A DNA stretch of 64,000 nucleotides, from assembly GCA_018001015.1 (NCBI GenBank), contig JAGNIV010000001.1, forward strand, positions 372,001-436,000, read 5' to 3'. This stretch comes from Phenylobacterium sp. Its GTDB lineage: Bacteria; Pseudomonadota; Alphaproteobacteria; Caulobacterales; Caulobacteraceae. A model generated the notes under the pieces. The model was given only the letters and a program-made list of their open reading frames with translations. It was not told where the DNA came from and made no database searches. This document shows, in pieces, positions 28,732 through 38,359 of the stretch. A program made the position numbers and the translations under genes. Each line of letters opens with the position of its first letter. Positions within the stretch are counted from its first letter, which is position 1.

Positions 28732-29400
28732 TCAGCGGATCGGCTGCAATCCCTGGAGATAGTCGCAGGCGCGGGCCGCATGGGCGGCGGCGGTGAAGAT
28801 GAAGCGGCGATCGCCCTTCAGGACCCGCAGCCAGCTGGCCAGGTAGGCGGCATGGTCCTCGCGTGGCGTGAGGTCCAGCCCGAGGTCGGCGCAGAGGAAC
28901 GCAGCGCCCAGTTCGGCGACAAGCTCTTCCCGCGCATAGTCCTCATCGCCCCAGCGCCCGCGACCGAAGTCCCGGTCGAGGCGGCTGGGATGCGCGGTCC
29001 AATGGACGCATTCGTGAGCCAGGGTCGCGTAGTAGCTCTCCGGGTCCCGGAAGGCCTCGAAGGGTGGCGATTGCACGTGGTCGGCGTGAATCGCGTAGTA
29101 GGCGCGCGCACCGCCATGGCGGATGTCTGCGCCCGTGGCGGCGAAGAAGGTTTCGGCGCGGGCGATCCTCGCGTGGGGATCTAACGTCGGCCGGGCGCAC
29201 GCCTGGCCGCGGTCCGGCAGCCCATCGATCTGTTCGACATTGAACACCGTGTAGGCCTTCAGAAAGGAGATGTGGCGCTCGACGTCCACGCCTTCGGCGT
29301 CCGGCTCGGTCCGCGCCAAGCGGTTGGCGTAGACCACGATCGAACCAGTCTCTCCCTTGCGGACATGTCCTCCGAGCGCCAGCGCCTGGCGGAAGGTCAT
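28732..29400 (-). pseudogene. ardC: ardC antirestriction gene, 3' part (split by insertion sequence)
   Basis: 222 residues reading MTFRQALALGGHVRKGETGS to the natural C-terminus. It carries the zinc-peptidase motif HECVH in LAHECVHWTAHPSRL and the typical KAYTVFNVEQIDGLP. The missing N-terminal 82 residues lie at 30749-30994, on the other side of the IS. Together they give 304 residues, normal ArdC length, so the gene was intact before insertion. ArdC proteins bind single-stranded DNA and protect incoming plasmid DNA from restriction. Because the fragment begins with ATG at 29400 it might still be translated, lacking the ssDNA-binding N-terminal part. Confidence 0.88.
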
Positions 29401-29402
29401 GT

Positions 29403-29418
29403 GTGGACGGCCCCTGCG
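29403..29418 (+). repeat. IS1111-type subterminal inverted repeat, right end
   Basis: GTGGACGGCCCCTGCG, identical in inverted orientation to 30728-30743; located 2 bp inside the element's end. Confidence 0.85.
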
Positions 29419-29650
29419 TTGCAAGGGGCGTCAGCTGAGATTTCGCTCCGGTCAGGCAGCAGTCATGTGTCCGGCCTGTTTGCGCGGCGCACGTGGCCGC
29501 TGGCCCTGATGAAGTCCGCGGACCGGGTCCCAATCATCCAGACGCGCTCGAGGCGCCTAACCTACCGTGGGCTCTCCCGATCCCCGGGTTGACCGGGTCG
29601 TCATCACACCATCAGCACTCCTGCAACTTGAGCCGTAATCGCTGACGCGC
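29419..29650 (-). ncRNA. Candidate bridge/seekRNA region of the IS
   Basis: 232 bp of non-coding DNA between the transposase stop and the right inverted repeat, against only about 51 bp between the left repeat and the transposase start. IS110-family elements encode a structured guide RNA in a non-coding end; in the IS1111 group it is downstream of the transposase. The position and length fit, but I have not derived a secondary structure or guide loops, and RNA boundaries are unknown. Confidence 0.45.
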
Positions 29651-30676
29651 TCAAAGCGCCCCGGCGACACCCGGCCGATAGACCTCGCCACGCGTGAGGA
29701 TGGCCCAGGCGATTCGCGCTGCCTTGTTGGCCAGCGCGACGGACACCAGCCGGGCGGGACGTCGCTCGAGCAGCGCCATCGCCCAAGCCTGGCGCGGCCC
29801 GCCGCGGGTGCGGGCGTAGCGGATGATCGAAGTGGCGCCGACGACCAGCAGTCGGCGAAGATATCGGTCGCCCATCTTCGAAATCGACCCGAGCCGATCT
29901 TTCCCGCCGCTGGAGTTTTGTCTCGGCACGAGTCCGATCCAGGCGGCGAACTGGCGACCCGATTTGAAGTGGCTGGGGTCGGTCACCGTGGCGGCGATCG
30001 CTGCGGCTGTGACGGGGCCGACGCCAGGAATCGTGGCCAGGCGCCGTGCCGCGTCATTGGTCTTGGCCCATCCAAAGATGTGCTGCTCCACCTCGCGGAT
30101 CCGGTCTTTGACCTCCTGAAGCTGCCGCAGCAAAACCTCCAAGGCGCAGAGCATCAGAGCGGGCAGCCGGTCTCGCTCGGCCTCGACGACTTGCAGCAGC
30201 TCCGGCACACGCTTCACGCCGGGTGGCGCGATAATGCCAACCTCGGAGAGGTGAGCACGCAGCGCGTTGTAGAGGCTGGTGCGTTGGCGGACGAGTTGAT
30301 CGCGGATGCGATGGAGCATCAGAACCGACTGCTGTTCAGCACTCTTGAGCGGCACGTAGCGCATCGTCGGTCGACTGACCGCCTCGCAGATCGCTTCGGC
30401 GTCGACCGCGTCGTTCTTCCCCCGCTTGACGTAAGGCTTCACATAGCTGGGCGGCATCAGCTTGACCTGGTGGCCCAGGGCCGCGAGTTCGCGCCCCCAG
30501 TGGTGCGCTGAGAAGCAAGCCTCCATCCCAACGAGGCATGGATCCAGGCTGCGGAAGAACGGCAGCACTTCGGCGCGGCCCAACTTCTTGCGCACGATCA
30601 CCTGGCCGTCGGCAGTGACGCCGTGGACCTGGAAGACGTTCTTGCCGAGATCGAAGCCGATGGTCGTGAGCTGCAT
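29651..30676 (-). CDS. IS110-family (IS1111 group) DEDD transposase
   Basis: 341 residues from ATG 30676 (MQLTTIGFDLGKNVFQVHGV), with AGGAGG upstream. The RuvC-like N-terminal domain has the acidic residues in FDLGKN, GMEAC and KNDAVDAEAI; the C-terminal transposase_20 domain has LATIPGVGPVTAAAIAATV and FAAWIGLVPRQNSSGGKDRLG with the serine region. Apparently full length. The open frame continues upstream without a stop into the ardC 5' fragment, so a read-through fusion is possible. Confidence 0.95.
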   Translation of the reverse strand: MQLTTIGFDLGKNVFQVHGVTADGQVIVRKKLGRAEVLPFFRSLDPCLVGMEACFSAHHWGRELAALGHQVKLMPPSYVKPYVKRGKNDAVDAEAICEAVSRPTMRYVPLKSAEQQSVLMLHRIRDQLVRQRTSLYNALRAHLSEVGIIAPPGVKRVPELLQVVEAERDRLPALMLCALEVLLRQLQEVKDRIREVEQHIFGWAKTNDAARRLATIPGVGPVTAAAIAATVTDPSHFKSGRQFAAWIGLVPRQNSSGGKDRLGSISKMGDRYLRRLLVVGATSIIRYARTRGGPRQAWAMALLERRPARLVSVALANKAARIAWAILTRGEVYRPGVAGAL

Positions 30677-30727
30677 GGTGGGTCCTCCTGCTCTGTGGCT
30701 AGCCCCCTCCGAATTCACATCTGCAGT

Positions 30728-30743
30728 CGCAGGGGCCGTCCAC
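30728..30743 (-). repeat. IS1111-type subterminal inverted repeat, left end
   Basis: CGCAGGGGCCGTCCAC on the + strand, the exact complement of 29403-29418; 5 bp inside the element's end. Confidence 0.85.
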
Positions 30744-30748
30744 CCCAT

Positions 30749-30994
30749 CATCCAGGTCGGTTCGATGAAGCCGCGCGCCGCAGCTTCCGACCAGAGCAGG
30801 ACGACATTGATCCCGTTGTAGGGCTGGCCGTTGTGCCGCAGTGGCCGGCTGACGCTCGAGGTCGCTGTCTTGTTCGACCAGGGTTGGGTCCAGGGGCGAA
30901 CGCCGCGGTCGAGGTCGGCGACGATGGCGTTGGTGACGCGGGTGTAGAGGTCGGGCCGGGCGTCTGGGCGCACGGCGGAGGTTGGACGGGCCAT
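30749..30994 (-). pseudogene. ardC: ardC antirestriction gene, 5' part
   Basis: 82 residues from ATG 30994 (MARPTSAVRPDARPDLYTRV...) to EPTWM, where the IS interrupts the frame. The segment LYTRVTNAIVADLDRGVRPWTQPW and PYNGINVVLLWSEAAARGF is the ArdC N-terminal ssDNA-binding domain. Translation would continue in frame through the IS left end into the transposase. See 28732-29400 for the other half. Confidence 0.88.
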
Positions 30995-31066
30995 GACGGC
31001 CTCCGATCTTGTGCTGGTTGGGGGAGATGGGCGCCGCCCGCGCGCAGGCGCGGGCGGCGCCAGGGC

Positions 31067-31378
31067 TCAGTCGGCGGCGCGGCTGCGCGACCAGATCAGG
31101 GCGTAGCCGTCCTCGGCGTCGACCAGAGAGGCGTAGATCGGGGCGGCGAAGCTGGGGTCGTCCAGCTTGACGGAGAGGTAGTCCCGGTTCTCACGGCTGG
31201 TCTTCTTCCAGGCCGCCCCAAACTCGGTGGCGCCGGCGAAGATGCGGTAGTCCGGGGCCTTGTCGTTCTCCTTCTCGGCGGTCCGGAATTGCGCGGACTT
31301 GACGTTGAGGGTGAGGGTCTTGATGGCGCCGCTGATGGAGCCGTCTTCGTGCTTGGTGAAGGTGCCGATGGTGGCCAT
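31067..31378 (-). CDS. DUF736 family protein
   Basis: 103 residues from ATG 31378 ([22 protein letters not shown]). The pattern GTFTK..DG...G.I.TL...[17 protein letters not shown] and [11 protein letters not shown] defines DUF736, a small protein almost always found near ArdC and relaxase genes on conjugative elements; its function is not established. This is the last recognisable backbone gene on the right; 31379-31522 contain no gene I can support. Confidence 0.93.
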
Positions 31379-31522
31379 GGTGGATCTCCTGTTGCTCGGA
31401 CCGCGCCTGTCGCGGCCTCGATGGCGATCCCCAGGCCGGGGGGCGACCGGCGCCGCAGCCATCTGGCCCGAAGCGTCAGCGCAGGACGCCGACGGGCGGC
31501 TTCTTTGCCTCGCGAGGAATGA

Positions 31523-32152
31523 CGTGGCCCAAGGCGCGGCAGGGGAAAGAAGGCGCGCGGCGGCGTTGAAGAAGCCGCGCTCTGGACGGGATCGGCCGAC
31601 GACCAGCCCCCCGAGCTGGAAGCCGCCGCCCTCGTGCAGGGTGGCCGCGAGCGCGGGCTGATCCTCCACAAGCTCCTGGAAGAGGTGCTGACCGGCGAAA
31701 TCCCAGAAGCGGAAGCCGCCCTGACCGAACGGGCTGGCCAACTCATCCGCGCTCTCGGCCAGTCTCCGGTCGCCGACCCGGCGACGGGGCTGTCGGCGCA
31801 GGAACTGGCGGCCTGTGTGGCCCGGACCCTGGCTCTGCCTGACATCGCGGCCCTGCGGCCGGATCTTCTCGCCGAATTTCCCGTCTATTCCGCACAGGCG
31901 GCCAACGGCGTGGAAACCGCAACGGCCGGGATCGCCGATGCCCTGACCCTGACGGCAGAGGGCCGCCCCGCCGTCGTCGTGGACTGGAAAAGCGATGTGA
32001 CGCCGGCGCCGGGAACGCTCGATCACTATCGCGCGCAGGTGCGGGCCTATCTCGACATGACCGGCGCCGAGCGCGGACTGATCGTGCTGATGACCTCCGG
32101 CGCCGTCATTCCCGTCCTGCCGACGAAGCCGACCGAGAGCGAGGCGGCCTGA
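31523..32152 (+). pseudogene. Nuclease end of a UvrD/AddA-like helicase-nuclease (5'-truncated)
   Basis: The frame opens after a stop at 31520; the first recognisable residues are [13 protein letters not shown] near 31565. There is no ATG; a GTG at 31634 could start a 172-residue product. The sequence [16 protein letters not shown], then [15 protein letters not shown] and [19 protein letters not shown] is the PD-(D/E)XK nuclease signature (H, D-x(n)-DxK, Q...Y) found at the C-terminus of AddA/RecB-like UvrD helicases of about 1100 residues. The helicase portion is missing. It ends 4 nt before the DUF6361 gene, so it was probably the first gene of that operon. Whether the nuclease fragment is still made is unknown. 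Confidence 0.75.
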
Positions 32153-32156
32153 GCCC

Positions 32157-33335
32157 ATGTCGTCTCTTGCCTGGATCGATTTCGATGAAGCCGAGCGGCA
32201 GCGCGCGCAGCGCATCATGGCGCTCTTTCAGGAGCGCGAGACCCGCGACGAGCTGGGGCTGGGGGCGATCCGGGATTCCATCGCCGATCATCTCTTTCCA
32301 GGCACGAGCACGATCCAGACGCGCCTGCGATACATGCTGTTCATTCCCTGGCTCTATCGGGCACTGGAAAAGTGCGAAGTCCCTGAAGCGCAGCTCCGCA
32401 CCGAGGCGCGCGACACCGAGATCCGGCTTGCCGACGCCCTGAAAGCCGGTGGTGAGTCCAACGGCATCATCGGCCGGGATGCAGGACCACGGCTCCAGCG
32501 GTTGCCGAGTTCCGTCTATTGGGCTGGCCTGGGCGCGTGGGGCATCCGGGTCTTTCCCGGCTCGCTCGACAGTCTGTTCGTCGCCTTGCGGGGCCGTGGC
32601 CGGTCGCGCGGTGCATCCAGCGGCGAAGACGCTCTGGCCGGAGCCCAGACGCCCGCCATCTGGAATCTGGCCTTGCCCCAGATGCCCGGCGATCTGCTTG
32701 AGCGCGCCATCTTCCGCCTGACCACTGACGAGGCGCAATTCCTCATCGACCGCCTGATCGCCAGCCAGCCCACCACACTGCTCACGATGCTGGCGCGCGA
32801 CGGCATCGACGCGGACTGCGACTATATCTGGACGCACCCCCATCTGTCAGCGTTTCCATCCGCCGCGCGCCGCCTCGTCCAACATGGGGAAATCTTCTCC
32901 CATGTGATGCACGGCGCCGCGCTGCTCTATAACCTCGCGCTCAGCGAGCTGCGCCAGCGCGACGACTGGATCGAGGAATATCGCGCTCGGCTTGAAGCCT
33001 GGCGCGACGAACTCGATACCGGTGCCGTCCGCGCGTGGTCGCTCGATGATTTCTGGAATGTCGTGGAGCACCCGGCACACGCCGTCCGACCGGCCGCCAA
33101 CCGGTTCGTGAGCGAGTGGCGCGATCTGGTTCTGGCCGGGACGGAGCAGGTAATCTCGGCACCCGCGGCGCGGCGGCTCGTCGAGGAGCGCGAACGCCGG
33201 CTCAAGACCAGCCAGTCCCGATACGCCAATCACGCTGTCCGCGACCGCTGGACCGGCGCATCGGGCACCGACCGCCTCAGCTTCCGCTGGGCGCAGGCCA
33301 AATCCCACCTGCGGGATCTCGCCCATGCTGAATAG
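32157..33335 (+). CDS. DUF6361 family protein
   Basis: 392 residues from ATG 32157. The N-terminus [20 protein letters not shown], then [43 protein letters not shown], is the DUF6361 signature. The remainder is helical ([39 protein letters not shown]) with no enzymatic motif I can name. Its stop overlaps the PLD-like gene by 11 nt, so the products are made in coordination. I know of no established function for the family; context with nuclease and helicase genes suggests a DNA-processing or defence complex. Confidence 0.85.
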
Positions 33336-35181
33336 GCGTAGCCTCGATCCCGAACAGCGAACGCTCTACGGCGCCAATCTTCAGCCGCCGGCGGGCTATG
33401 TCTTCGACGCGGCGGTCGCCACGACCTTCTCGCTCGACTTCGAGACCGCGCTCGCCGTGCCGGTCAGTCTGGCGCTCTTCGCCGCCGAGAACCGCGACGA
33501 CATTCTTTCTCATCCTCTGGCGCTGCTGGAGGGCGCCGAGCGCATCGCCGGCCGCCTCGTCGTCTTCACCGACGCCGGCCATATCCAGGCGAGCGCCCGG
33601 CCGCATTCCCGCCTTTGCTCGCTGCTCGAACGCATCATCGTCGAGGTCGCCGCCCCTCAAGGCGGGGCCTTCCACCCCAAGATGTGGGCGCTGCGCTTCA
33701 CGCCGTTGCGGCCCGAAGACCCCGCCCGCCTGCGTCTGCTCATTCTCTCCCGAAACCTGACGCGCGATCGCTCATGGGATATTGCCGCCACCCTCGACGG
33801 CGTGATCACCAAGCAGCCCAAGGCCGTCAATCGCCCGGTCGCCGACTTCCTTCGCCAGCTCCCCGACCTCGCGACCGTCGGCGCTCCCGACGGAACGAAG
33901 ACGCTTGTCGATGACCTGGCCGAAGACATACGACGCGCTGAATGGAGCCTGCCCGAACCGTTCCAGAGCGTCTCCTTCGCCGTCAACGGCCTCGGCGGCA
34001 AGCCGTGGCGCCCGGAATCCTGCGCTCGGCTGGGCGTCGTGTCGCCCTTCTGCGACGATCAAACCTTGTCGATGCTCGCCCGGCTGGCCAGCGCCGAAAA
34101 GCCCATCTTCATCGGGCGATCCGACGAACTCGCCCAGGTGCCCGGCGCCACGCTCGATGGCTTTGCCCGCGTGGCCGTGCTCGATGAAATGGCGGCCACG
34201 GAAGATGGCGAGGAGGAGGACGCAGCGGCCCTGCAAGGGCTCCATGCCAAGGCGTTCATCGCCGAACGCGGCTGGGACACCGCGATCACGGTCGGCTCGG
34301 GAAACGCCACGCGGCCGGCGCTGCTGACCGGCAGCAATGTCGAGATCTTCACCACCCTGACCGGGAAGCGATCGCGGGTCGGCAGCGTCGAGGAAATCCT
34401 CGGCGACAAGGGGTTTGGCCGGCTGACGCGGCCGTTCGTCCGCGACGAGACGGGAGCCGCCGATGCCGCGCAACGAGCCGCCGAGGCTCGTTTGGATCAG
34501 GCCCGGCGCGAGATTTGCCGCAGCGGCCTCACGCTCCGTTGCGAGCGCGGCGAGCACAGCGCAGATGGTGCGCCGGTCTGGCGGGTCTGGCTGATCCCGT
34601 GCGAACCGCTGCCCCTTACCGGGCTCGGTGCGCTGCGAGTTTGGCCGATCACACGGGGCGAAGGGCATGCGCGCGATGTGCTGGAGCCGCTCCGACAGGG
34701 ACAGCCCGCCGACCTTTGCGCAATGCCCTTGGTCGACCTTACCCGGTTCCTCGCCTGTCACCTGACGGACGAGACGGAAGGCGTCTCGATCCTGTTCAGC
34801 ACCGGGCTCATGATGGAGGGGCTGCCCGCAGAGCGTCACGCCGCCATCCTGCGCTGGGTGATCGACAGCAAGGACGCCTTCTTCCGCTATCTCCGCCTGC
34901 TCCTCTCCGAATTGGGCGATCCCTTCGCCGCCGCCCTCGCGGCGCAGGACGGGTCAGGTCAGGGCGCTTGGCGCGCGGCAAGCGACGACGCGCCCATCCT
35001 CGAGGAGATGGTTCGGGCCTTCTGCCGGGGCGGAGACCAGCTTCGCGCCATCGAACGGCTGATCGCACGCCTGGAAACCGGCGACGGTGACGATACCGAT
35101 CCGATTCCGGCCGAGTTCCGCGCACTCTGGAACACATTCCGAATTGCGCTCGCCACGCAGGATGCCGCGCATGCCGAATGA
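33325..35181 (+). CDS. PLD-like nuclease-family protein (two HxK half-sites)
   Basis: 618 residues from ATG 33325. It has two phospholipase-D-type half-sites: FHPKMWALRF with LILSRNLTRDRSWD (about residues 114-160) and LHAKAFIAERGWDTAITVGSGNATRPAL (about residues 305-335). Both have H-x-K followed by a conserved N (SRN, GSGN), as in PLD nucleases associated with helicases. The C-terminal 250 residues have no recognisable domain. It overlaps the DUF6361 gene and the helicase gene by 11 nt each. By analogy with DrmC-like and other helicase-linked PLD proteins it may cut nucleic acid; this is an inference. Confidence 0.82.
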   Translation: MLNRRSLDPEQRTLYGANLQPPAGYVFDAAVATTFSLDFETALAVPVSLALFAAENRDDILSHPLALLEGAERIAGRLVVFTDAGHIQASARPHSRLCSLLERIIVEVAAPQGGAFHPKMWALRFTPLRPEDPARLRLLILSRNLTRDRSWDIAATLDGVITKQPKAVNRPVADFLRQLPDLATVGAPDGTKTLVDDLAEDIRRAEWSLPEPFQSVSFAVNGLGGKPWRPESCARLGVVSPFCDDQTLSMLARLASAEKPIFIGRSDELAQVPGATLDGFARVAVLDEMAATEDGEEEDAAALQGLHAKAFIAERGWDTAITVGSGNATRPALLTGSNVEIFTTLTGKRSRVGSVEEILGDKGFGRLTRPFVRDETGAADAAQRAAEARLDQARREICRSGLTLRCERGEHSADGAPVWRVWLIPCEPLPLTGLGALRVWPITRGEGHARDVLEPLRQGQPADLCAMPLVDLTRFLACHLTDETEGVSILFSTGLMMEGLPAERHAAILRWVIDSKDAFFRYLRLLLSELGDPFAAALAAQDGSGQGAWRAASDDAPILEEMVRAFCRGGDQLRAIERLIARLETGDGDDTDPIPAEFRALWNTFRIALATQDAAHAE

Positions 35182-38167
35182 ACGGTTTCGCGCCGACGCA
35201 GCGCTCGCTCCACTCAAGGTCTTTCAGCGGCGCACCGTCGACTACGTCTTCGATCGGCTCTACGGCCAGGACGATCCTGTCCGCCAGTTCCTGGTCGCCG
35301 ACGAAGTTGGCCTTGGCAAGACGATGGTGGCGCGCGGGGTCATCGCCCGCATGATCGAACACCTGTGGGACAGCACCAAGCGGATCGACATCCTCTACAT
35401 CTGCTCAAACCAGGCGATCGCCGCCCAGAACCTCAACCGGCTGAACGTCCTCGGGCGGCGCGAGCTGGCCCTGCCGACCCGCATGACCCTTGTTCCCCTG
35501 CAACTGCGCGACCAGGCGGGCCTCGACGCCAACAGGGTGAACTTCATCAGCCTGACGCCGGGCACGACTTTCGATCTGCGCTCCGCGACGGGCGTGACGC
35601 AGGAACGCGCCTTGCTGTTCCATCTCCTGCGCGACCTCGTTACGCGCCCGCGCGGCCTGCACAACCTGTTGCAGGTCACGGCCGGCGTCGAGGGTTGGAA
35701 CCGCGCCGTGGACAACCTCACCCTCGAAGGCGTCGACAAGCGCATCATCGAGCGTTTCCGCCGCGACGTGCAGGCGGATCGGGACCTCTTCGAGGAACTC
35801 GAACGGGTTTGCGAACTCTTCCCGCGCCGCCGGGACACCTATCCCGCAGAAATGACGCAGCCCCGCAACAGCCTGGTCGCCCGGCTCCGCGCCAAGCTGT
35901 CCCACGCCTGCGTGGATGCGCTGCAACCCGACCTCATCATCATGGACGAGTTCCAGCGGTTCCGGGATCTGCTGCATGGCGACAGCGACGCGGCGATCCT
36001 CGCGCGCGAACTGTTCGACTACTCGGGAGGCGACGGGCACGCCGCCCGCACCTTGCTGCTCTCCGCCACACCCTACCGGATGCTCACGCTCGCCGGCGAC
36101 GAGCCCGACGAAGGCGACCACTATCAGGACTTCCTTGAGACCCTGAGTTTCCTCTACGGCGGGGAAAAGGGGCCGGAGGTGGCAGCCACGCTGGCGCGTG
36201 AAATGCGCGCCTTCCGCGGCCTCCTGCATGCCCTGCCACAGTCACATGCCTCAGCGGTCGAGACCCGCCAGACCATCGAACGGCGCCTGCGCCGTGTGAT
36301 CGCCCGAACCGAGCGGGTCGCATCCACGGTCGAGCGCGACTCCATGATGAGCGAGCCTCCCATCACGGTCTCGATCGCGCCCGCCGACCTCGCGCAGGCA
36401 TCCGCCGTTTCTCAGGTGGCGCGCACGCTCGATGCGCCGGAGATCATCGAATACTGGAAGTCTTCGCCCTATCTGCTCAACTTCATGCGCCACTACAGCC
36501 TGAAGCGGCTGCTGGAAGACCAGGTCGACGCGCCTTCGGCCGTGCTCCGCACTGCAATCCAGGCGGCTCGACCGGCCATGCTCGATCACGACGCCATCGA
36601 CGCCTATGCGCCGCTGGACCCGGCCAACGGCCGTATGCGCGCGATCATGGACGACATCTTCGGCCAGCACCTGGAACAGAACCTCTGGATACCCGCCGCC
36701 ATGCCCTATTACGGCGAGGCGCGAGCCGGGGCGCCGCTGACCAAGGCGCTGATATTTTCGTCCTGGTCCATGGTGCCCGATGCGATCGCAGCCCTGCTGT
36801 CCTACGAAGCCGAACGGCGCATGGGCGTCGGCGAATCCGGCCGGCGCTATTTCGAGCAGCATCGCCTGCGTCCCTTGCAGTTTCGGCAGGATCACGGCCG
36901 GCTCGCGGGTCTGCGCGCGCTGCTGCTGATCTATCCCTCGCCGGCGCTGGCCGAGTTGGCCGATCCGCTGGCGGTGTTCAGCGAAACGGGGGCCGCCTTG
37001 TCGCTGGAGGGAATGCGCTCCGCTGTGGGCGACCGCCTCAAGCCCGCCATCGGTGCTTTGAAGGAAGGCGCGGTGTCGCATCAGGACGCGCACAGCGCCG
37101 AGTGGGCCGCCCCAGCCGTGATCGATGACCTGCTGGGCGCGCGATCCCGCGCCTGGCTGGAAGCGCCCCACGGCATGCGCGCCCTGGCGAGCGAAGACGC
37201 CTTCCACGATCATGTCGCCGAATTGGCGGCAGCGGTGAAGACGCACGACATCGGCGCTTTGTCCGACGATCTTTCGGACCTGCTGGTTGACGTCGCGCTC
37301 GGCAGTCCGGCCGTCTGCGCGCTTCGCGCCCTCAAGCGGATCGCGCCCGAGCTGGCGTGGGATGACCCACGCTTGCTCAGCGCCGCCGCCGAAGTCGCCT
37401 GGTCGTTCCGGGCTCTGTTCAATCAGCATGACGCGGTCGCCTTGCTGCGACGGGATACCGACGATCATTACTGGCGCCGCGTGCTGGCCTATTGCGCCCA
37501 GCACAACCTACAGGCCGTCCTGGACGAATACGCACATTACCTCGTCGACGCCGAAGGTCTCGGTGCCCGCCCAGCCGACGACCGCGCAATCGGTGTCGCT
37601 CGCGCCATGGCCCAGGCCCTGGCTATCCGCCCGTCGCAGATCGACGTCGATGACGTGCAGGTCGATGGAGAGTCCCTCGCCATCAGCAAGTTCCAGATGC
37701 GCGGACGCTTCGCGATGCGGCTCGCCGACTACAAGGACGAAGACGGCGCCGTCGCACGGCTCGGAGGCGTGCGTGACGCCTTCAACTCACCATTCCGGCC
37801 GTTCGTTCTCGCCACCACGTCGGTCGGCCAGGAAGGGCTGGACTTCCACCCCTATTGCTATCGCGTCTATCACTGGAACTTGCCGGGCAACCCGGTGGAC
37901 CTTGAGCAGCGCGAAGGCCGCGTTCACCGCTTCAAGGGCCATGCCGTGCGCCTCAACCTAGCCGAACGCCAGGCCGCGGTCGTCAGGGGCCGCGGGCAGG
38001 CTCCTGACGACCCGTGGAAGCTGATGTTCGAGCACGCGCGATCCGAGGCGGCGGTCGACACCGATCTCATCCCCTATGGGGCCGATTTCACGCGAACAAA
38101 TGCGAAATGTTGCGAGAACATGCTCGCACCAGATGCGCACCCACCTCCTGGCAAGTTATTGAAATAA
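35171..38167 (+). CDS. SF2/SNF2-like helicase of the DUF6361-PLD module (C-terminus probably truncated)
   Basis: 998 residues from ATG 35171 (AGGA about 9 nt upstream); ATG 35162 is an alternative, and an open frame back to 35087 is inside the PLD gene. Helicase motifs: Walker A VADEVGLGKTMVARG (about residue 42), motif II IIMDEFQRF (about residue 257), motif III LLLSATPYRM, and the second lobe with LATTSVGQEGLDFHPYCYRVYHWNLPG (about residue 880) and the arginine-finger motif QREGRVHR. After DTDLIPY the sequence turns into an unlike tail (GADFTRTNAKCCENM...) and stops at a hairpin; relatives continue for some tens of residues, so the end looks replaced by DNA at the island boundary. Confidence 0.82.
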   Translation: MPNERFRADAALAPLKVFQRRTVDYVFDRLYGQDDPVRQFLVADEVGLGKTMVARGVIARMIEHLWDSTKRIDILYICSNQAIAAQNLNRLNVLGRRELALPTRMTLVPLQLRDQAGLDANRVNFISLTPGTTFDLRSATGVTQERALLFHLLRDLVTRPRGLHNLLQVTAGVEGWNRAVDNLTLEGVDKRIIERFRRDVQADRDLFEELERVCELFPRRRDTYPAEMTQPRNSLVARLRAKLSHACVDALQPDLIIMDEFQRFRDLLHGDSDAAILARELFDYSGGDGHAARTLLLSATPYRMLTLAGDEPDEGDHYQDFLETLSFLYGGEKGPEVAATLAREMRAFRGLLHALPQSHASAVETRQTIERRLRRVIARTERVASTVERDSMMSEPPITVSIAPADLAQASAVSQVARTLDAPEIIEYWKSSPYLLNFMRHYSLKRLLEDQVDAPSAVLRTAIQAARPAMLDHDAIDAYAPLDPANGRMRAIMDDIFGQHLEQNLWIPAAMPYYGEARAGAPLTKALIFSSWSMVPDAIAALLSYEAERRMGVGESGRRYFEQHRLRPLQFRQDHGRLAGLRALLLIYPSPALAELADPLAVFSETGAALSLEGMRSAVGDRLKPAIGALKEGAVSHQDAHSAEWAAPAVIDDLLGARSRAWLEAPHGMRALASEDAFHDHVAELAAAVKTHDIGALSDDLSDLLVDVALGSPAVCALRALKRIAPELAWDDPRLLSAAAEVAWSFRALFNQHDAVALLRRDTDDHYWRRVLAYCAQHNLQAVLDEYAHYLVDAEGLGARPADDRAIGVARAMAQALAIRPSQIDVDDVQVDGESLAISKFQMRGRFAMRLADYKDEDGAVARLGGVRDAFNSPFRPFVLATTSVGQEGLDFHPYCYRVYHWNLPGNPVDLEQREGRVHRFKGHAVRLNLAERQAAVVRGRGQAPDDPWKLMFEHARSEAAVDTDLIPYGADFTRTNAKCCENMLAPDAHPPPGKLLK

Positions 38168-38170
38168 CTT
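38153..38170. repeat. Short AT-rich inverted repeat at the helicase stop
   Basis: AAGTTATT and AATAACTT flank a 2-nt loop, a perfect 8-bp stem unlike the surrounding GC-rich DNA; another 6-bp stem (TGCGAG...CTCGCA, 38111-38128) lies just before it. This marks the probable right junction of the element. The following 38171-38359 show no gene. Confidence 0.45.
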
Positions 38171-38359
38171 ACGAATCCATCCAGTCCATCATGGGCGCAA
38201 CGGACAGTCGGTGGGAGGAAATCGGCACGGGCATCGGGTCTCAGGCGGCGAACGATGGGAGCCGCGCGGGGCGGCTCCCGTTCGCCTTAGCAGATACCGA
38301 TCCTATCCGCACGGCCAGGCCGCCGCCGCCAAATCCGCTCGCCAGGGTCAGGCGGCCGG

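Follow-up and report, generated by a model that had tools for sequence, protein, structure and literature searches.

Four reading frames lie on the + strand at positions 31523-38167 of the window, that is, the whole stretch of 64,000 nucleotides of Phenylobacterium sp. DNA that was analysed. An ORF check agrees with the first-pass annotation, which had described four genes that are either 4 nt apart or overlap by 11 nt. The first frame stops at 32150-32152 and is followed, after a gap of 4 nt, by the ATG of ZacA at 32157. ZacA and ZacB share 11 nt (33325-33335), as do ZacB and ZacC (35171-35181) when ZacC is started at the ATG at 35171, where it was placed because the aligned relatives start there. 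The features of the locus and of its surroundings are collected in Table 1.

Table 1. Features at the Zac locus and in the surrounding DNA; positions are those of the window unless a contig is named
Feature	Position	Strand	Basis or remark
ArdC anti-restriction gene, split by IS110-type transposase	28732..30994	-	Pfam domains
Small island gene left of the break	31067..31378	-	Read from the sequence
AddA-like UvrD helicase-nuclease gene, 3' fragment	31568..32152	+	Nuclease motif retained, helicase domains absent
ZacA (DUF6361), 392 aa, intact	32157..33335	+	PDLC03828 E 1.1e-135; PF19888 5.9e-90
ZacB, 618 aa, intact, PLD-fold phosphodiesterase (predicted)	33325..35181	+	Half-sites H117xK119..N144, H307xK309..N327
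ZacC, SF2 (SNF2/RapA-like) helicase, C-terminally truncated	35171..38167	+	PDLC03830 1053.6 bits
dusA 5' end (probable)	38169..38234	-	Reads MPVPISSHRLSVAPMMDWMDS*; ~90 bp right of the 38080 break
dusA and 355-aa integrase-like ORF	Contig C5 (genome G000) ~345.8-348.0 kb		dusA start reads HRLSCAPMMDWTD

The last three genes form a core that is already known. The first-pass annotation recognised no named system of this composition, but the trio of DUF6361, PLD and helicase proteins is ZacABC in PADLOC-DB, whose profiles (version 2.0.0, models PDLC03828-03830) find ZacA, ZacB and ZacC homologues within one operon, ZacB at E 7.9e-173, ZacC at E 0 and ZacA with the value given in Table 1. Since PADLOC-DB has names for the three, they are already catalogued as a candidate defence system. 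The window proteins match all three models over nearly their full length and in the same order; the differences are that the window ZacC lacks its tail, and that neither the AddA remnant of the window nor the WYL, AddB and AddA proteins of whole copies hit a Zac model among the matches listed. A full-text literature search found, among the matches listed, no publication describing Zac, no experiment on it and no origin for the PADLOC name.

With regard to the individual proteins, the second gene had been called DUF6361, and the Pfam match confirms it; its product, ZacA, is predicted to be all-helical (pLDDT 82.8), and a fold search found no usable PDB match for this model. ZacB has no Pfam match at E 0.1. 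Its predicted fold is nonetheless the two-lobe PLD fold with two HxK...N half-sites that is expected of a PLD superfamily nuclease, as the first reading of this gene had held, and both half-sites are invariant in relatives. The Foldseek matches reach E 1e-7, yet with modest TM-scores of 0.3-0.45. ZacC carries the Pfam domains DEAD and Helicase_C, the motif patterns for helicase motifs I, II, V and VI were all found in the window copy, and the PADLOC ZacC model aligned at 4-945 of 1019 in this copy. These results bear out the earlier description of a roughly 1000-residue SF2 helicase, but the gene is cut at 38080 and closes on 28 foreign codons (38081-38164).

The extent of the truncation is evident from a comparison with 37 kb of plasmid sequence from Niveispirillum cyanobacteriorum (L002), which aligns with the window in a single gapless block of 6513 bp (31568-38080, 97.2% identity). 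The left end of this block falls inside the AddA-like gene, which is 1155 aa long on the plasmid by our own ORF call, and the right end inside ZacC; the residues encoded before 31568 in the first frame fall outside the homology. The first gene had been read as a UvrD/AddA-type nuclease end, and a PDDEXK_1 domain is indeed present (Pfam, 8.9e-7; motif GIADAL..VVDWKS), but not a whole gene: about 194 C-terminal residues remain of the ~1135-1155 seen in whole relatives. At the other end, ZacC has lost a tail of about 79 residues that is nearly gapless and nearly invariant across 50 other non-redundant relatives (selected as at least 940 aa long), including W970, R980, S988, Y1004, R1005 and FGQPRQ (1008-1013). 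The window locus is therefore a Zac remnant and not an intact member. Of the two parts of an AddAB enzyme, an AddA with SF1 helicase and C-terminal nuclease is represented in the window by the nuclease end alone. An AddB partner with a nuclease domain is present in relatives, but an AddB query for the first of the two cassettes described below (set 1) gave no match at E 1e-30 in the window's genome, where the DNA missing from the window copy finds only a 32-nt match. The breaks at 31568 or 38080 may include an assembly join.

Compared with the plasmid, the four pieces together differ at 41 first, 15 second and 123 third codon positions, and no frame-breaking stops were seen in them, so that the truncation looks recent. 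An active, shortened copy would also be expected to show intact Zac frames and mostly synonymous differences, ZacA and ZacB are whole, ZacC has its helicase motifs, and Zac loci free of AddAB exist; a Zac that still works without AddAB, from a promoter inside the AddA remnant, is nevertheless improbable, given that residues of at least 97% conservation (Y1004, R1005 and FGQPRQ among them) are gone from ZacC. Furthermore, the gene calls at 22.8 to 31.4 kb, up to just upstream of the fragment, are all on the strand opposite to Zac, and a scan of 31000-32300, which covers sigma-70-like promoters alone, found none. Taken with the missing upstream part of the operon, these observations indicate that the window copy is probably inactive.

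The fragment is flanked on its left by genes of a mobile kind. The small gene next to the break is, we presume, DUF736-like. Pfam finds MPTase-PolyVal and ArdcN at 28732-29424 and ArdcN, DEDD_Tnp_IS110 and Transposase_20 at 29651-30994, and one ORF joins the ArdC start to the IS110-type transposase. A DUF3363 gene (Pfam) also lies to the left within the window; we take this family to be tied to relaxases and read the other left-side genes as tra/trb, conjugation-type genes. On the right, what we take from its APMMDWTD start to be a dusA 5' end probably marks the site at which the outer end of the fragment-bearing island is attached. A dusA lies 63 kb to the left of this remnant, with the integrase-like ORF about 0.1 kb beyond its start, and the pair suggests a dusA-integrated island of about 63 kb (C5 ~345.8-410.2 kb), for which no empty site was found. 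This arrangement fits the dusA integrase family (PMC4482086).

The gene content of whole copies was taken from a genome scan, in which 414 of 434 pattern matches encode ZacA relatives; the best 80 of the 414, six plasmid loci and the window give 87 sequences. The first-pass annotation had proposed a search for DUF6361, PLD and helicase neighbourhoods across genomes, and the trio recurs in order throughout this set, with ZacA in all 87 sequences, ZacB in 86 and ZacC in 82. Near full length are 87, 81 and 74 of them, respectively, the shortened ZacC of the window passing the length cut. ZacC is absent from five loci, of which four stop at that point and one, L080, appears broken. This arrangement is not due to chance. 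Other copies are shortened too, some perhaps through assembly errors: L009, L020, L025 and L056 have short AddB, ZacB or ZacC frames, and in L012 the AddA has 582 aa and no AddB match lies upstream. The hosts include Alpha-, Beta-, Gamma- and Deltaproteobacteria, Campylobacterales, others and a haloarchaeon. A ZacA relative was found in 45 plasmid records, of which 16 were typed as conjugative and 26 as non-mobilizable; Cronobacter accounts for 19 of the 45, and one of its plasmids (L004) carries Zac without AddAB, with an integrase adjacent.

The fuller form of the operon, seen in whole copies, comprises a WYL regulator, an AddB-like nuclease, an AddA-like helicase-nuclease, ZacA, ZacB and ZacC. 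In Bradyrhizobium, Shinella and many other loci, genes for a PD-(D/E)XK (AddB-like) and a UvrD (AddA-like) protein precede ZacA, often with a divergent WYL gene. Sphingomonadales and Rhodobacterales have a second set of WYL, AddB-like and AddA-like genes, identically ordered and likewise upstream of Zac. The AddB proteins of the two sets align with a probability of 77% over 311 columns. The AddA-like relative in L003 has UvrD domains and a nuclease motif, with AddA (4.2e-36) and then RecB (3.5e-24) as its best PDB matches; for the AddB-like protein the PDB search gave nothing at E 1. In set 1, motif patterns detect a PD-(D/E)XK-type motif in AddA as well as in AddB. In the second set the patterns mostly fail: Walker A was found in 0 and the nuclease motif in 2 of 15 non-set-1 AddA ORFs, and the nuclease motif in 6 of 13 second-set AddB proteins. 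Notwithstanding the earlier suggestion that order and tight coupling point to one complex of four genes, both ends of the group are cut, and its nuclease end belongs to this separable WYL-AddB-AddA cassette.

The frequency of the cassette near Zac was counted in several ways. AddA/UvrD was matched in 49 of 86 loci and AddB in 39, or in 23 and 18 of 51 non-redundant loci. Among the 31 non-redundant loci with at least 9 kb of flank on both sides, AddA/UvrD is present in 16 (weak opposite-strand UvrD matches in L043 and L083 included) and AddB in 14, whereas none of the 20 control windows, each 20 kb long, has a match. These controls were taken from the chromosomes of three completely sequenced members of the class, without matching for mobile islands. 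Of the 31 loci, 15 lack an AddA match and 17 an AddB match. Because many Zac lineages are without it, AddAB cannot be essential. In 385 genomes of the class, ZacA was found in 7 (the window's own genome included), set-1 AddB in 8 (in one of them a 94-residue piece with stops) and both in 5, against about 0.15 expected by our own arithmetic, a co-occurrence that is biased upwards because Zac-linked loci supplied the AddB query. Two of these 5 genomes have Zac adjacent to AddB on a single contig; for G060 a convergent, neighbouring arrangement is suggested by two contig ends, and in G065 they are on different contigs.

A reasonable possibility, if short of an even chance, is that AddAB and Zac are functionally unrelated and travel together only because defence cassettes collect in shared hotspots. 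Each occurs without the other (AddAB without Zac in G066 and G004), AddAB is on the opposite strand in L043 and probably in G060, and a further SF2 helicase (~1113-1141 aa) intervenes between AddA and ZacA in L030 and L040. On the other hand, two divergent AddAB sets sit directly upstream of Zac in the same order and with close spacing, and 5 of the 7 ZacA genomes also have AddB. Moreover, on a quick Zac tree of 45 rows with AddAB labels assigned by hand, the distribution of the with/without label takes 8 changes, of which well-supported branches force at least 7, and the link has therefore been gained or lost repeatedly. In Shinella L005 a set-1 AddAB stands beside a Zac that groups, on a long branch, with set-2 loci. 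The additional helicase is possibly a separate AddAB partner: in G066, on a single contig, the gene after AddAB encodes a 1113-aa SF2 helicase that is 79% identical to the one of L040. Helicases of 1113-1141 aa lie between AddA and ZacA at L040:6523-9945 and L030:6602-9940, and after AddA in place of Zac at L104:2911-6249(-). As far as these searches go, in which no description of it was found, the recurrent, swappable AddAB/WYL partner is the new part of the Zac locus.

The annotation had also seen the profile of a defence island and proposed a check for enrichment. Beyond the conservation and wide spread of the trio, 120 of the 154 proteins encoded around Zac at 31 loci, with the Zac, AddAB and WYL clusters excluded, gave matches to 167 PADLOC models at E 1e-15, compared with 5 (mad3, MzaA and three E1-E2 models) for 120 control proteins not matched for mobile islands. 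The models are redundant, so that 167 counts models and not proteins, and one UvrD-domain neighbour may account for many. The 25 neighbour matches listed include ZorA, PglZ, BrxL, DrmA, PtuA and methylases. For instance, Zorya I ZorA and ZorB lie downstream of ZacC at L077:16500-19648, and L073, L082 and L086 carry the same two clusters; BREX BrxL and PglZ directly adjoin Zac at L043:16208-20817. In Shinella, Multiubiquitin, ThiF-type and DUF6527 genes adjoin AddAB-Zac (L005:3320-5665). The SbcCD-, Ku- and ligase-type genes that accompany some copies, the 16 conjugative plasmids and the DUF3363 gene near the window fragment would also suit a role in mobile-element DNA processing (transfer, repair or plasmid competition) in place of phage defence. 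This is unlikely, as the neighbours include Zorya, BREX, DISARM DrmA, Septu and methylase genes where the controls match 5 models in total, and 26 of the 45 plasmids were typed as non-mobilizable.

Among known systems, DISARM shares with Zac a PLD protein (DrmC) and an SNF2-like helicase (DrmD), and DrmD models touch the helicase motifs of ZacC. The annotation had nonetheless set DISARM apart, rightly: ZacB has no DrmC match at E 0.1, the four window proteins contain no DUF1998 or methylase domain, and of the DISARM set of DrmA, DrmB (DUF1998) and methyltransferase they yield only short helicase-motif matches to DrmA/DrmD models. SauUSI/NgoAVII-type ATP-dependent PLD restriction enzymes have an SRA- or B3-type DNA-recognition domain. 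Pfam finds no known DNA-recognition domain, these types included, in the four proteins; ZacB, in addition, holds both half-sites in one chain, and Zac has the extra helical subunit ZacA. The AddA-like protein of Zac loci is closest to AddA, then to RecB, in the PDB search, but the Zac-linked pair is an accessory copy on mobile DNA, often beside WYL and defence genes. The Druantia III-Zorya II synergy likewise involves two defence systems that depend on a helicase-nuclease for end processing, there reported to be the host's own RecBCD (PMC13192584); Zac loci, some with Zorya genes beside them, encode an AddAB-like pair alongside.

The best reading of Zac is a DNA-cutting anti-phage or anti-plasmid system. 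ZacC, as an SF2 translocase, would move along invading DNA, which ZacB, by its predicted PLD fold and paired half-sites, would cut, with ZacA as a putative helical adaptor between them, coupling or licensing their action. By analogy with RecBCD/AddAB, the linked AddA/AddB-like pair may degrade the cut ends, and before infection the operon is probably kept repressed by the WYL protein. We put at roughly 0.6 the probability of the reading as a whole, namely that a Zac operon cut down not long ago survives in the window as a remnant, at the outer end of an island that is conjugation-related and probably dusA-integrated, and that whole copies are a DNA-cutting system with AddAB end degradation. 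More tentatively, and with doubt outweighing confidence, Zac with WYL-AddB-AddA might be a self-sufficient cutter and shredder with an end processor of the RecBCD/AddAB type of its own, AddAB being a portable module that pairs with Zac or with the ~1113-aa SF2 helicase; since the island would bring its own end processor, phage inhibitors of the host's enzyme would not disarm Zac.

What reads in a single genome as a compact 'four-gene system' can turn out to be a fragment, and gene content is better taken from whole relatives. If AddAB-like enzymes are recruited as island partners, bacterial defence would have a recurrent layer in which DNA ends are degraded independently of the host, and this recruitment can be tested in the Zac loci found here.
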